Shown piece after piece: positions 54,641 to 59,867 of a stretch of 64,000 nt of DNA. The stretch covers positions 62,001 to 126,000 of the forward strand of contig NZ_JACYOT010000013.1 in assembly GCF_014858005.1 (NCBI RefSeq). The letters run 5' to 3'. The stretch is from Propioniciclava soli (GTDB taxonomy: Bacteria; Actinomycetota; Actinomycetes; Propionibacteriales; Propionibacteriaceae). Position 1 is the first letter of the stretch. Every line of letters begins with the position of its first letter. The position numbers and the translations under genes are program-made. Below the pieces are notes generated by a model. That model was given only the letters and a program-made list of their open reading frames with translations, was not told the DNA's origin and did no database searches.

Positions 54641-54726
54641 GGACGAAGGGCCGTCCGTGCGCAGTGGGCCCCCGCCCGTTGCGGCTGACGACTTCGTCCT
54701 CCGCAACGAATCGGAGGATGCTGGTG
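54641..54726 (+). promoter_or_regulatory. riboswitch expression platform with competing helices
   Basis: GGACGAAG (54641-54648) can pair with CTTCGTCC (54692-54699). The overlapping CCTCCG (54698-54703) can instead pair with CGGAGG (54712-54717), the btuF ribosome site. The two pairings exclude each other, so ligand binding could close the ribosome site. Confidence 0.55.
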
Positions 54727-55737
54727 ATCCAGCCCCACACCCCATCAACTCGCACGCGCCCTGCGCGCCTCACCTGGCTCGGCGCCGCCGCGCTCGCGCT
54801 GGCCCTGGCGGCCTGCGGATCGCCGGCGACGCCCAGCGCGAGCGGCACGACCGACGCCCCGGCCGCCACCACCCCGGCCACCACGACCCCGGCTGCCGCA
54901 TCCTTCCCCGTCGACGTCGTCACCGGCGCCGGTGACAGCACCGAGACGGTCACCATCGCTGAGCGCCCCGACGCGATCGTCTCGCTGAGCCCGACCGCCA
55001 CGGAGTCGCTGTTCGCGATCGGAGCGGGCGACCAGGTCGTCGCCGTCGACTCGCAGTCCGACTACCCGGCCGAGGCGCCGATCACCGACCTGTCGGGGTA
55101 CACCCCCAACGTGGAGGCCATCCTGGCCCACGAGCCCGACCTCGTGGTCGCCTCGACGCGGGACGCCGACCTGATCGGCAGCCTCGCCAACGCCGGCGTC
55201 CCGACGCTCGCCCTCCCGTCCGCCCAGACGCTGGACGAGGCCTACGGGCAGATCGAGCGGCTCGGCACCGCCACGGGGCACCTGGCCGATGCCAAGGCCG
55301 TGGTCGCGCAGATGGACGAGCGCATCCAGGCCGCCGTCGACGCCACCCCGAAGGCTGAAGGGGCCACCTACTTCCACGAGCTCGACCCGACGCTCTACAC
55401 CGTCACCAGTGACACGTTCATCGGTGAGGTCTACGGCATGTTCGGGCTGACCAGCATCGCGGACGCCGCCGGGACGACCGACTTGTACCCCCAGCTCTCC
55501 GAGGAGTACGTCGTGGCCGCCGACCCCGACCTCATCTTCCTGTCCGACACCCAGTGTTGCGGCGTCACGCCCGCATCGCTCGGTGAGCGCGCCGGGTGGG
55601 CCGGCCTCTCCGCCGTCACCGGTGACCGGGTCCACGTCCTCGACGAGGACGTCGCGAGCCGCTGGGGGCCGCGGGTGGTCGACTTCGTCGAGACCGTCTC
55701 CGATCACGTGACCGCGTTGCAGACAGCCCACGCATGA
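54724..55737 (+). CDS. btuF: cobalamin-binding lipoprotein of B12 ABC transporter
   Basis: Periplasmic-binding-protein-type lipoprotein of 337 residues that delivers cobalamin to BtuCD. The signal peptide ends at lipobox LAAC (C31), and the mature part shows PDAIVSLSPTATESLFAIG and a DLIFLSDTQ-type second lobe. GTG 54724 is used because the GGAGG ribosome site abuts ATG 54718, and the GTG has 6-nt spacing. The riboswitch upstream indicates B12 rather than heme or siderophore as the ligand. Confidence 0.9.
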   Translation: MIQPHTPSTRTRPARLTWLGAAALALALAACGSPATPSASGTTDAPAATTPATTTPAAASFPVDVVTGAGDSTETVTIAERPDAIVSLSPTATESLFAIGAGDQVVAVDSQSDYPAEAPITDLSGYTPNVEAILAHEPDLVVASTRDADLIGSLANAGVPTLALPSAQTLDEAYGQIERLGTATGHLADAKAVVAQMDERIQAAVDATPKAEGATYFHELDPTLYTVTSDTFIGEVYGMFGLTSIADAAGTTDLYPQLSEEYVVAADPDLIFLSDTQCCGVTPASLGERAGWAGLSAVTGDRVHVLDEDVASRWGPRVVDFVETVSDHVTALQTAHA

Positions 55738-56819
55738 GTGCGACCCCGAGGACGCCGTCCCTGGCCCGGGTCCGCCGGCTCGACGTGCCACGCCTTGGCC
55801 GTGGCATCGGTCGGTCGGGCCGCTGGCTGGTCGCGGGCTGCGTCCTCGGGATCGCGCTGCTCACCGGCGTCATGATCGGGCCGGCCGGCCTGACGGCGTC
55901 GGGCGTCGCCCTCGAGCTGGTCAACGCGATCCCCGGCGTGACGCTCGATTCGGGCCTGACGAGCCAGCAGCAGGCCATCTTGTGGCAGATCCGGCTGCCG
56001 CGCATGGTGCTGGGCGCCCTGGTGGGCGCCACGCTGGCTGTCGCCGGCGCCGCGTACCAGGGCGTCTTCCGCAACCCGCTCGCTGACCCGTACCTGCTCG
56101 GCGTCTCGGCCGGCGCGGGTCTCGGCGCCACGCTCGCCATCACGCAGGGGGGCGGGATCGGCCCGTTCGGGGTGCCGCTGGCCGCCTTCGCCGGCGGCCT
56201 GCTGGCGGTGAGCGCCACCTACGCCCTCGGTGCCAGCGTGGGGGGCCACCGCAGCTCGACCATCATCGTGCTCGCCGGCGTGGCCGTCGCGGCGTTCTTC
56301 AGCGCCGTGCAGACCTTCGTGCAGCAGTGGTTCGACGACTCGCTGCTCGCTGTCTACAGCTGGATGCTCGGCCGGCTGAGCACCAACGGGTGGAGCGACG
56401 TCATCATGGTGCTGCCGTACGTGCTCGCGAGCTGGGTGCTGTTGCTGCTGCACCGCCGCACGCTCGACGTGCTCGCCGTCGGCGACGTGGAGGCCGCCAG
56501 CCTCGGCATCAACGTCCCGCGGGTGCGGCTCGTGCTCGTGCTGGTCGCCACGCTCGGCACCACCGCGGTCGTGGCGGTGAGCGGGCTCATCGGGTTCGTC
56601 GGCATCGTCGTGCCCCACGCCGTCCGGCTGATCTTCGGCACCTCCCACCGCCTCCTCCTTCCGCTGGCCATGCTGTTCGGGGCGGCCTTCCTCGTGCTCG
56701 CCGATGTCGCTGCCCGCTCGGTCGTGGCGCCCGCCGAGTTGCCGATCGGCGTCGTCACCGCCTTCGTCGGCGCGCCCTTCTTCCTGGTCGTCCTCCGCCG
56801 GAACCGGAGCATGACGTGA
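55734..56819 (+). CDS. btuC: cobalamin ABC transporter permease
   Basis: FecCD/BtuC-type permease of 361 residues with about ten helices. IRLPRMVLGALVGATLAVAGAAYQGVFRNPLADPYLLGVSAGAGLGA and the coupling segment GFVGIVVPHAVRLIFG are family hallmarks. Start and stop overlap the neighbours (ATGA and GTGA), so the operon is tightly coupled. Confidence 0.94.
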   Translation: MSATPRTPSLARVRRLDVPRLGRGIGRSGRWLVAGCVLGIALLTGVMIGPAGLTASGVALELVNAIPGVTLDSGLTSQQQAILWQIRLPRMVLGALVGATLAVAGAAYQGVFRNPLADPYLLGVSAGAGLGATLAITQGGGIGPFGVPLAAFAGGLLAVSATYALGASVGGHRSSTIIVLAGVAVAAFFSAVQTFVQQWFDDSLLAVYSWMLGRLSTNGWSDVIMVLPYVLASWVLLLLHRRTLDVLAVGDVEAASLGINVPRVRLVLVLVATLGTTAVVAVSGLIGFVGIVVPHAVRLIFGTSHRLLLPLAMLFGAAFLVLADVAARSVVAPAELPIGVVTAFVGAPFFLVVLRRNRSMT

Positions 56820-57595
56820 GCGTGCTGGAGTGTCGCGGCCTCGGCGTCCGCCGGGGGGAGGCGCAGGTCGTCCACGACCTCGATCTCGTGGTGGACGCCG
56901 GCGCCTGGGTCGCCGTCGTCGGGCCCAACGGGGCGGGCAAGACCTCGCTGCTGCACGGCATCGCCGCGCTCACCCCCGTCACCGGCCACCTCCGCCTCGG
57001 AAACGACGATCCGCACCAGCTCTCCCGGCGTGCGCTCGCTCGGCGGGTGGCCCTCATGGCCCAGCAGCCCGTCGTGCCCACCGGCATGACCGTGCGCGAG
57101 TTGGTGGCCCTCGGCCGGACGCCCTTCCTGCGCCGCTTCGGCACCGAGTCGGCCACCGACCGGGCCGCCGTGCAGCACGAGCTCACCCGGCTCGGCCTGG
57201 CCACGCTCGCCGACCGCCCCGCCGACCGGCTCTCCGGCGGCGAACTGCAGCGCGTCATGCTGGCCCGTGCCCTGTGCCAACAGCCGACCCTGCTGCTGCT
57301 CGACGAGCCGACCAGCGCCCTCGACATCGGGCACCAGCAGTCGGTGCTGGACCTGGTGGACGAGCAGCGCCACGAGCGAGGGCTCACCGTGCTGGCCGCC
57401 ATGCACGACCTCACGCTGGCCGCCCAGTACGCCGACCGCATGGTGCTGCTCGACCGCGGCGTCCTCGTGCAGGACGGCCCCCCCGCGGACGTGCTGGACG
57501 CCCGCCAACTGAACGAGACCTATGGCGCCCGCGTCGACGTGCTGCCCCGCCCCGCCGGCCCCGCCGTCATCCCCGTCCGCCCGGTGAGCCGCTGA
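56816..57595 (+). CDS. btuD: cobalamin ABC transporter ATPase
   Basis: ABC ATPase of 259 residues with Walker A GPNGAGKTS, signature LSGGELQRVMLARAL, Walker B LLLLDEPTSALD and the H-loop His (AAMHDLTLA). Energises BtuFC. The GTG start overlaps the btuC stop. Confidence 0.94.
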   Translation: MSVLECRGLGVRRGEAQVVHDLDLVVDAGAWVAVVGPNGAGKTSLLHGIAALTPVTGHLRLGNDDPHQLSRRALARRVALMAQQPVVPTGMTVRELVALGRTPFLRRFGTESATDRAAVQHELTRLGLATLADRPADRLSGGELQRVMLARALCQQPTLLLLDEPTSALDIGHQQSVLDLVDEQRHERGLTVLAAMHDLTLAAQYADRMVLLDRGVLVQDGPPADVLDARQLNETYGARVDVLPRPAGPAVIPVRPVSR

Positions 57596-57631
57596 CGCGC
57601 ACGCCCATCCCATCCCCGCAAGGAGCCCCCT

Positions 57632-58195
57632 GTGACCGACCTGCCGACACACGACCGCCCCCTGCCGCCGCGCCGGGACGTTGACTCGCTGGTGTTCGTC
57701 AACACCGGCGACGGCAAGGGGAAGTCGACCGCCGCCTTCGGCATGCTGATGCGCGCCGCCGCCCGCGGCTGGCCGTCCTGCGTGGTGCAGTTCATGAAGT
57801 CGGGACGCTGGCGCGTGGGGGAGGCGGAGTCGGCCCGCCGCCTGGGGGTCGACTGGTTCACCCACGGCGACGGCTTCACCTGGGAGAGCGACGACCTCGA
57901 CCGGAGCGCCGGCATCGCCCGCGAGGCGTGGCGTCTGGCCGACCGCGTGTTGACGTCCGGGGAGTACCGCCTCGTCGTGCTCGACGAGGTGACCTACCCG
58001 CTCACCTACGGCTGGCTCGACGCCGAGACGGTCGTGGCCCGGATCCGGGAGCGCGCGGCGTCCACCAACGTCATCTGCACCGGCCGCAACGCCCACGCCT
58101 CGCTGGTTGACCTGGCCGACACGGTCACCGAGATGCGCAACGTGAAGCACGCCCACGCCACCGGCGTCCGCGCGCGCCGCGGCATCGACTACTGA
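57632..58195 (+). CDS. cobO: cob(I)yrinic acid a,c-diamide adenosyltransferase
   Basis: CobA-type enzyme that transfers the adenosyl group to cob(I)alamin, making coenzyme B12. The 187 residues have the P-loop FVNTGDGKGKSTAAFGML, VQFMKSGRW and VVLDEVTYPLTYGWLD, and a Cys-containing INVICTGRNA. GTG 57632 follows AAGGAG. In the btu operon it adenosylates imported cobalamin. Confidence 0.93.
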   Translation: MTDLPTHDRPLPPRRDVDSLVFVNTGDGKGKSTAAFGMLMRAAARGWPSCVVQFMKSGRWRVGEAESARRLGVDWFTHGDGFTWESDDLDRSAGIAREAWRLADRVLTSGEYRLVVLDEVTYPLTYGWLDAETVVARIRERAASTNVICTGRNAHASLVDLADTVTEMRNVKHAHATGVRARRGIDY

Positions 58196-58266
58196 CGCCC
58201 GGGTCGCCCCGGTCGCCCCGGCGTCCGACCTGTGGGAAACGGCTGTGCGGACGCCGCTCGCGCCGC

Positions 58267-58272
58267 TAGTCT
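58267..58272 (+). promoter_or_regulatory. -10 hexamer of the polycysteine leader
   Basis: TAGTCT ends 6 nt before GTG 58279. Confidence 0.55.
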
Positions 58273-58278
58273 GACCCC

Positions 58279-58368
58279 GTGATCACGACGGCGCATTTCG
58301 ACACGCTGTCTCTCGTCATGCCCGGCTGTTGTCGGTGTTGTCGCCGCCCGCGCGGCGCCCACTCCTGA
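58279..58368 (+). CDS. polycysteine leader peptide (29 residues), cysteine attenuator candidate
   Basis: A leaderless ORF starting with GTG 6 nt after TAGTCT and ending TGA 58366-58368. It encodes 29 residues whose second half is MPGCCRCCRRPRGAHS, with Cys codons at 58327-58332 and 58336-58341. In mycobacteria, leaderless short ORFs with Cys-Cys-Arg-Arg-like runs are known to act as cysteine-responsive attenuators: ribosomes stall on the Cys codons when cysteine is scarce and change the downstream RNA fold. The next gene on the strand is the NIL-domain gene. Confidence 0.7.
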   Translation: MITTAHFDTLSLVMPGCCRCCRRPRGAHS

Positions 58369-58448
58369 TCCCCCCGGCGACCTGACCCGGCCGGTGGCCG
58401 GGAGTGTGGCTCTCAACCCCCACACCCACACCACCGCAGCCAGGAGCC
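58340..58448 (+). promoter_or_regulatory. candidate attenuator RNA structures after the polycysteine leader
   Basis: GTCGCCG (58340-58346, over Cys/Arg codons) can pair with CGGCGAC (58375-58381). CCCGGCC (58386-58392) and GGCCGGG (58396-58402) form a strong hairpin. GGCTCT (58408-58413) can pair with GGAGCC (58443-58448) and so hide the ribosome site AGGAG at 58442-58446. Confidence 0.45.
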
Positions 58449-58451
58449 GTC

Positions 58452-58673
58452 ATGACCCTCGATCTCGTCTTCGTCCAGCAGAGCGCCGCAGGCGCCACCT
58501 TCGCCCAGCTCGCCGCCGACCTCGGCGTCGAGCTCCGCCTGGTCGCCCAGCGCATCACCACCATGGAGATCTTCCCGGTGAGCGTGCTCACCGTCGAACT
58601 CACCGCGGAGCCAGGCCTCCTCGAGGCTGCGACGCGCTGGTTCGCCCAGCGGGGCATCCACCGGCTGGCCTAG
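58452..58673 (+). CDS. stand-alone NIL-domain protein
   Basis: A 73-residue ferredoxin-like NIL domain, the fold that senses methionine/cysteine-type ligands at the end of MetN transporters. The pattern VQQSAAGATFAQLAADLGVELRLVAQRI, then VSVLTVELT and EAATRWFAQRGI fits the family. ATG 58452 follows AGGAG by 5 nt. Standing alone behind a polycysteine leader, it is likely a sulfur-amino-acid sensor or binding protein (inference). Its TAG stop forms part of the next -10. Confidence 0.75.
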   Translation: MTLDLVFVQQSAAGATFAQLAADLGVELRLVAQRITTMEIFPVSVLTVELTAEPGLLEAATRWFAQRGIHRLA

Positions 58674-58676
58674 GCT
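58671..58676 (+). promoter_or_regulatory. -10 hexamer of oxidoreductase gene overlapping a stop codon
   Basis: TAGGCT ends 6 nt before ATG 58683; its TAG is the NIL gene stop. Confidence 0.6.
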
Positions 58677-58682
58677 GGGGCC

Positions 58683-59867
58683 ATGAGCCCGGACGAGGAC
58701 GTCACCCCGCTCCGCGTCGGCATCGTCGGCTGCGGCAACATTGCCCGCTCCCACGCCCGCGCGTACGCCGAGAACCCGCGCGTCCGGCTCGTCGCGTACC
58801 ACGACGTGGTGCCCGGCCGGGCCGAGGCCTTCGCCGACGCCCACGGCGGCAGCGCCGTCAGCTCCGTGGCCGAGGTGGTCGCGTCCGGTGTCGACCTCGT
58901 GTCCATCGCCACCCCGCCCGGGAGCCACGCCGACATCGCCTGCGCGCTGCTGTCCGCAGGGGTGAACGTGCTCATCGAGAAGCCCGCGACGATCAGCCTC
59001 GCCGAGCTCGACCGGGTGGCCGAGGCCGAACGGGCCGGCGGTGTCCAGGCCTACGTCGTCCTGCAGCACCGGCACGGCAGCGGCGCGGTGCGCGCCCGGC
59101 GGCTCATGGACGCCGGCTCGCTGGGCACCCCCCGCGTCGCCGTCTGCGAGACCCTCTGGTACCGCACCGACGGCTATTTCACCGACGTCGACTGGCGAGG
59201 CCTCTGGGCCGGTGAGGGCGGTGGGCCGACGCTCGGCCACGCCATCCACCAGATCGACCTGCTGCTGCACCTGATGGGGGAGTGGGAGAGCGTGGACGCC
59301 CGCGCCGTCCGGCTCGCGCGGCCCGTGCAGTTCGAGGACGCCTCGCTCGCCGTCGTCACCTTCGCCAGCGGCGCTGTGGCGAGCATCGTCACCAGCCTCG
59401 TCTCGCCGCGCGAGGTGAGCCGCATCCGGGTCGACACCGAGGGCGGCACCCTAGAGGTCAACCACCTGTACGGCTACCGTGACGCCGACTGGTCTTGGAC
59501 GCCCGTGCCCGATCCGGAGGTCGCCGCACGCTTCGGGTTGGATCCCGGCACGCAGGCGCGGCCGGGCGCCGCGGCCCGCCCGGCTGCGGGCGATCCGTGG
59601 GCCGCGAGCGCGGCCGACGTCGACGAGGTGCCCAGCAACCACGCCGCGCAGATCAACCGCCTGGTGGGCGACCTGCTGGCCGGACGCCGCCACGCCACGA
59701 CGTTGGAGAGCGCCCGGTCGACCATGGAGCTGGTGAGCGCCATCTACGCCTCCGGGTTGGGGGGAGGCACCGTGCGACGCGGCGACCTGACCCCGGGACA
59801 CCCCTTCCACGCGCGTCTCGACGGCGGGCTGGACGCCGCCGCGGTGGACGCCCGCCTGGTGCCCTGA
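58683..59867 (+). CDS. Gfo/Idh/MocA family oxidoreductase
   Basis: NAD(P)-dependent dehydrogenase of 394 residues. The N-terminal GIVGCGNIARSHARAYA (GxGxxA/H) and the EKP motif IEKPATISL are intact, and the sugar-binding half includes GGPTLGHAIHQIDLLLHLMG, the catalytic His position. Its substrate is likely a sugar or inositol but not determined. It is leaderless and unrelated in sequence detail to the earlier oxidoreductase at 4931. Confidence 0.88.
   Translation: MSPDEDVTPLRVGIVGCGNIARSHARAYAENPRVRLVAYHDVVPGRAEAFADAHGGSAVSSVAEVVASGVDLVSIATPPGSHADIACALLSAGVNVLIEKPATISLAELDRVAEAERAGGVQAYVVLQHRHGSGAVRARRLMDAGSLGTPRVAVCETLWYRTDGYFTDVDWRGLWAGEGGGPTLGHAIHQIDLLLHLMGEWESVDARAVRLARPVQFEDASLAVVTFASGAVASIVTSLVSPREVSRIRVDTEGGTLEVNHLYGYRDADWSWTPVPDPEVAARFGLDPGTQARPGAAARPAAGDPWAASAADVDEVPSNHAAQINRLVGDLLAGRRHATTLESARSTMELVSAIYASGLGGGTVRRGDLTPGHPFHARLDGGLDAAAVDARLVP

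Follow-up and report, generated by a model that had tools for sequence, protein, structure and literature searches.

The stand-alone NIL-domain gene of Propioniciclava soli described here is most likely the dedicated output of a cysteine-responsive translational attenuator in its leader, a reading to which we assign a probability of roughly 85%. The leader lies within a 64,000-nt stretch of DNA (hereafter the window, 72% G+C), and all of its elements are on the forward strand. A TAGTCT hexamer at 58267–58272, i.e., the −10 signature of a leaderless promoter, is found 6 nt before the GTG of a leaderless-type upstream ORF (uORF) of 29 codons, VITTAHFDTLSLVMPGCCRCCRRPRGAHS, which spans 58279–58368 including its stop. 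This uORF contains the candidate Cys sensor tract TGT TGT CGG TGT TGT (58327–58341), encoding CCRCC, and its stop is separated by 83 nt from the ATG (58452) of the predicted target, a gene for a 73-aa stand-alone NIL-domain protein (58452–58673) with an AGGAG Shine-Dalgarno (SD) sequence at 58442–58446. A preliminary description of the locus had already named the hexamer, its 6-nt gap to the GTG, the 29-codon ORF, the CCRCC run, and the stop, all of which agree with the sequence and the ORF list. It had also pointed to a hairpin and to a 73-residue NIL-domain protein with a ribosome site; the latter two are borne out by a match to PF09383 and by the AGGAG sequence.

In the mechanism that we propose, transcription would start at or beside the GTG at 58279, and the leaderless uORF would be translated. 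With ample Cys-tRNA, the ribosome would clear the four UGU codons and finish at the stop, after which the stretch immediately preceding the Cys tract would be free to base-pair with the start region of NIL and thereby hold its translation down. Under Cys-tRNA scarcity, by contrast, the first Cys codons would make the ribosome wait, so that it would cover this pre-Cys strand and the NIL start region would open. Leaderless transcription, stalling, and induction are the steps that we infer, and stand-alone NIL production would accordingly be expected when cysteine is short, which offers a clue to the role of these proteins.

The architecture is unlikely to have arisen by chance. Defined as TANNNT, 4–9 nt, RTG, and an ORF of 8–60 codons with 3 clustered Cys, it was found once in the 64-kb window with both strands counted, against a chance expectation averaging 0.07 per 64 kb in dinucleotide Markov sequences, and its four-Cys version appeared in none of 60 such sequences of window size. 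Across the window's genome, where the 14 and 13 matches from the pattern searches were all examined, only the NIL leader displayed this architecture; three other CCxCC-type ORFs (L050, L063, and L081) lacked a −10 element. A classical terminator attenuator was rejected because no intrinsic terminator was found at 58100–58800, and a known Rfam element was likewise rejected, as the single match was at chance level (13.5 of 90 bits) and none covered the leader.

Next to its anatomy, the leader is distinguished by its conservation. Among 147 Propionibacteriaceae genomes, the NIL protein was detected in 16, including the window's genome, spread over four genera (three loci had to be taken from the opposite strand). 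All 16 homologues were preceded by a uORF of 23–36 codons with 3–5 clustered Cys codons, ending 63–98 nt upstream of NIL, and in all 16 leaders a TANNNT hexamer was located 6–7 nt ahead of the ATG or GTG, the 5′ ends being predicted from sequence. The Cys run is thus conserved upstream of NIL homologues throughout the family sample, and this conservation, together with several RNA-level tests whose outcome is not uniform across leaders, supports the reading of the locus as a cysteine attenuator that the preliminary description had offered. Within the genus, NIL was present in 9 of 13 genomes and the leader in all 9. The tract TGTTGTC[C/G]GTGTTGT was listed in eight of these nine genomes and in none of the four without NIL; the ninth NIL-bearing genome (G123) has a 3-Cys form of the tract, and a near match in G103 (TGTTGTCGGTGTTGC, L064) is not embedded in the architecture. 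Many aligned leaders also contain GGGAG-type and CTCC-type segments related to the hairpin arms.

Outside of the family, the coupling was not observed. Nine of 293 genomes from the order matched the NIL family when the best 14–20 candidates per genome were scored, and all nine were Propionibacteriaceae, with one weak match (G024) in a 496-residue frame; in the class, the window's genome alone matched among 394 genomes, again with the best 14–20 candidates of each. No polycysteine uORF was found ahead of seven additional NIL genes that come from other families in the class; six of these occupy open frames of 82–145 aa, and the seventh (L102), although similar in look, has a longer frame. A 55-codon ORF with three scattered Cys upstream of one of them (L096) was judged to be a chance occurrence. 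Hence, a Cys-rich ORF upstream of NIL homologues, which the preliminary description had suggested looking for in other actinobacteria, holds for 16 of 16 loci in the family but 0 of 7 in other families, and we rejected the idea that polycysteine uORFs generally accompany stand-alone NIL genes.

The choice of Cys codons points to a constraint on the uORF at the RNA level, since TGT is strongly preferred there against a genomic preference for TGC. The 16 uORFs use TGT 60 times and TGC 6 times. In the window, the ratio of TGT to TGC was 11:96 for 30 ORFs selected by high GC3, a selection that itself favors TGC, 19:131 for the 39 ORFs of a looser selection, and 1:8 for five Pfam-matched ORFs.

This constraint can be placed alongside the predicted structure of the leader, which folds at −81 kcal/mol versus −71 kcal/mol for shuffled sequences (z = −2.4; 3 of 200 shuffles as good). 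In the minimum free energy fold, the predicted hiding strand, made of the codons before and within the Cys tract (58315–58341), pairs with 58428–58456, and the 3′ strand of the resulting long-range helix runs through the NIL start codon, hiding CATGAC and the bases right after the SD core. The AGG of the SD sits in a bulge while its final two bases are paired, and the helix encloses the inner hairpin, with arms at 58357–58367 and 58399–58410.

We evaluated this pairing across leaders through swap tests, in which the upstream strand of each leader was paired with its own or with other leaders' downstream segments. Since one leader (L007) was nearly identical to another (L006), it was dropped, leaving 15 leaders in the swap, recoding-scan, and footprint-variation tests, while all 16 entered the uORF survey, the codon count, the 5′-masking model, and the first footprint run. 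In a first version with 15 leaders, the pre-Cys strand paired with its own SD zone at −16.3 kcal/mol versus −14.9 kcal/mol with those of others, and 442 of 20,000 permutations were as strong. When a single leader was retained for each of 11 clades, assigned by eye, the values were −16.8 versus −14.1 kcal/mol with the start codon excluded (56 of 20,000 permutations as strong) and −19.8 versus −17.0 kcal/mol with the start codon included (151 of 20,000). Single leaders varied: the own SD zone of L015 ranked last of 15, and those of L004, L006, L013, and L017 were mid-ranked. For the Cys tract itself, own downstream segments were no better than swapped ones (5313 and 19,604 of 20,000 permutations), and because this own-segment preference is absent, the swap test lends no support to pairing by the tract as such.

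The effect of ribosome position was modeled by masking the ribosome footprint alone and computing the cost of opening the segment from the SD to the AUG. For 15 leaders, the mean cost fell from 10.2 kcal/mol in the free leader to 9.4 kcal/mol when a ribosome occupied the stop and to 7.0 kcal/mol when it waited at the first Cys codon (10.2, 9.5, and 6.8 kcal/mol, respectively, for all 16), and the corresponding values for the window were 11.0, 11.7, and 5.6 kcal/mol. When the ribosome was moved along the uORF, the mean cost was lowest with the A site between −24 and +6 nt relative to the first Cys codon. The minimum fell exactly on this codon in three of 15 leaders, the window's among them, 6–24 nt before it in eight, and elsewhere in four. 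We compared the relief with that of random synonymous recodings, which favored GC-ending codons, extended to the Cys codons, and left the peptide unchanged: mean relief was 3.16 kcal/mol as observed versus 0.32 kcal/mol in the recodings, and at most 1 in 30 recodings did as well in eight of 15 leaders, again including the window's. Four leaders (L005, L009, L012, and L017) had a relief close to or below zero, and in three others (L008, L016, and L018) it was small (1.1–1.6 kcal/mol).

The mean drop persisted over four footprints and two temperatures. Depending on these settings, the first-Cys state was >1 kcal/mol easier to open than the free leader in 9–11 of 15 leaders, and, depending on the footprint, >1 kcal/mol easier than with the ribosome at the stop in only 5–8 of 15. 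A cruder model, which masks all sequence 5′ of the ribosome, yielded no gain for the SD on stalling (unpaired 0.13–0.23 versus 0.26 in the free leader), and the start codon was slightly more open (0.64–0.68 versus 0.53). In the modeling, hiding of the NIL start and its release by stalling are clear for the window and for about half of the leaders, but the effect is absent in four of 15 and weak in three; it is seen with footprint-only masking, whereas release of the SD is not reproduced under 5′ masking. Energy models of this type leave co-transcriptional folding aside, and within that scope the modeling favors translational attenuation with good but not uniform support.

Several other readings of the locus have to be weighed against translational attenuation. 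One is a Rho-dependent, polarity-type attenuation, in which the position of the uORF ribosome would set Rho loading and thereby control completion of the transcript rather than NIL initiation. Seliverstov et al. 2005 (PMC1262725) suggested such a mechanism for the polycysteine leaders that precede cys operons of Mycobacterium and P. acnes, in which obvious terminators are absent, and no intrinsic terminator was found for the window leader either. However, a Rho mechanism would need neither the complementarity that extends to the NIL SD and start codon nor the dependence of relief on ribosome position observed in many leaders, and we consider it unlikely. Less probable still, and the least so of the readings considered, is that the uORF product is a functional small Cys-rich peptide, e.g., metal-binding or redox-active, which is co-expressed with NIL while regulation is incidental. 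An RMRGA(R/H)S-like tail after the CCxCC run in several uORFs would fit such a peptide, yet this tail is missing from the CCPCCRA group, its codons share bases with the upstream arm of the hairpin predicted for the window, and the uORFs vary in length (23–36 aa) and in sequence outside the Cys tract, with just 3 Cys in L004. The strong TGT preference also indicates a constraint on the RNA instead of the peptide.

It is similarly improbable, if marginally less so, that the true target is an operon represented by the Gfo/Idh/MocA-like gene at 58683–59867, with NIL as a passenger. This gene begins only 9 nt past the NIL stop, which amends the preliminary view of NIL as the only obvious target. 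It has, however, a likely leaderless −10 element of its own (TAGGCT-N6-ATG, 58671–58683), which overlaps the NIL stop codon, and no clear SD; moreover, relatives have other neighbors. At 10 loci where downstream neighbors were selected by ORF and GC3 filters and named with Pfam, we identified an ABC ATPase, an SLH protein, an acetyltransferase, DUF4261, a pectate-lyase-like protein, an Emfourin-domain protein, and an amino-acid permease, as well as a DNA ligase at three loci, twice on the opposite strand (once as a C-terminal piece) and once on the same strand. The ligase recurs inside the genus (also in L018, by eye) and not across genera. The nearest selected and named ORF was on the opposite strand at six of the 10 loci, and no downstream gene common to different genera was found among them. 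An operon shared by different genera and including NIL was thus rejected given these varying neighbors, and since neighbors differ across genera, NIL is the sole partner of the leader seen at 16 of 16 loci, in line with the part of the earlier claim that made a lone NIL gene the target. With the following gene frequently encoded on the opposite strand, the leader–NIL pair may also represent a clean system for leaderless attenuation without operon effects. On the other side of the leader, directly upstream in the window (54664–58195), we noted B12/iron-type importer genes for a periplasmic binding protein, a FecCD permease, and an ABC ATPase (named by eye), a gene set which ends with a CobO/CobA-type adenosyltransferase just before the leader.

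The window NIL protein matches PF09383 with 27.9 bits (cut-off 24, E = 2.1e-6), and 12 of the 16 family members match this model at E ≤ 0.001. Its AlphaFold model (mean pLDDT 84) displays a beta-alpha-beta-beta-alpha-beta fold, for which the best solved structural matches are the C2 domains of MetN (TMq 0.74–0.78). A possible link of the gene downstream of the leader to sulfur metabolism lies in the kinship of NIL with the domain by which a methionine importer is regulated. In E. coli MetN, binding of L-Met by the C2 domain inhibits import, and the N295A variant does not bind L-Met, as given in the available portion of PMC12357092. Like the NIL/C2 domain of MetN (PF09383; PDB 3dhx, 3tuz), the window protein combines a Pfam match with the corresponding predicted fold; unlike it, the protein is free-standing, shares ~15% identity, and, in an alignment at this low identity, has Arg29 at the place of the Met-contacting Asn295, a position held by Arg in 14 of the 16 homologues and by His and Glu in one each. 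Because of this Arg, a sulfur amino-acid ligand is only putative, as is the preliminary label of a sulfur amino-acid-binding protein. Arg at the Asn295-aligned place also occurs in the long-frame NIL protein of the window's genome, whereas the seven NIL proteins from other families display N-I-R there. Of the 16 genomes with a stand-alone NIL, 13 have a long-frame NIL protein listed, which shows no association, since such proteins are also found in many genomes lacking the stand-alone form. Speculatively, and at rather long odds, a free-standing MetN-type regulatory domain induced by cysteine scarcity may act in trans, e.g., on the subunit of a MetN-type importer; if so, a detached allosteric domain under the control of a translational sensor would rebalance sulfur amino-acid uptake. 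We also observed that the seven NIL proteins from other families (L096–L102) form a second stand-alone-looking group, with PNIRRA in six of seven (TNIRRA in L101) and an (E/D)GD..AG tail in six of seven, none having a polycysteine leader.

The principle of the proposed mechanism is known from mycobacteria, in which polycysteine leaderless short ORFs reportedly act as attenuators according to Canestrari et al. 2020, whose model is said to involve a stalled ribosome that prevents a structure from hiding the downstream ribosome site. P. acnes, also discussed for such leaders, belongs to the wider family in which our NIL loci are found. The NIL leader resembles the mycobacterial ORFs in being a leaderless-type short ORF with clustered Cys codons ahead of a presumed target; it differs in belonging to another actinobacterial order and in having a lone NIL gene, not cysteine-metabolism operons, as its constant target. 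In 2005, Seliverstov et al. (PMC1262725) predicted polycysteine leaders for Mycobacterium as well as for P. acnes and B. longum, and in 2015 ribosome profiling of M. smegmatis supported one such leader (PMC4633059). The 2005 leaders, that of P. acnes included, likewise carry Cys runs toward the end of a short ORF, but precede cys operons or cbs, with no conserved hairpins reported (PMC1262725), whereas here the target is NIL and pairing with its start region is statistically supported. The Ms4527A-family leader and cis_reg_atten models (NCBIfam NF042936, NF042934) have the regulatory idea in common with the NIL leader, and the 11 of 16 leader peptides compared with NCBIfam models (the window's and 10 other uORFs) gave no match. 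We found no paper linking the NIL domain to cysteine in actinobacteria or to attenuation, although subscription papers might describe such a link. Within the sources searched, both the target and the leader family are new. The locus adds evidence, from comparison of genomes and at the RNA level, that leaderless polycysteine attenuation reaches beyond mycobacteria, and extends it from cysteine operons to one small gene kept with its leader in four genera.

A few additional ORFs emerged from the pattern searches. In the window's own genome (G000:C11), a leaderless-type uORF (L078:8101–8199; TACGCT-N6-GTG; VSAVNRARGAVPLVGRAHVDFLRVRSSLCRVS) precedes genes for a sulfite reductase, cysH, cysD, and cysN, the latter two named by eye. 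It resembles the Ms4527A family below the cut-offs (20.3 of 45 and 15.7 of 27 bits), and has a single Cys, in HVDFLRVRSSLCR, compared to the CCRCC of the NIL leader. The search across the genus yielded 110 matches, about half of which were examined, such that other leaders in congeners may be missed. A match at L016:307–369 was of the chance type, and a CCPRCC ORF (L072), which lacked a −10 element and was followed by no recognized sulfur gene, was judged a chance occurrence. In a congener without the NIL family (G034), a leaderless-type polycysteine uORF, MFNATRTAGVADVRVGSCCRCC, at L060:1450–1518 precedes a DUF4395 gene, a domain looked for and not found in the window's genome, and a thioredoxin-like gene, and is probably another cysteine attenuator.
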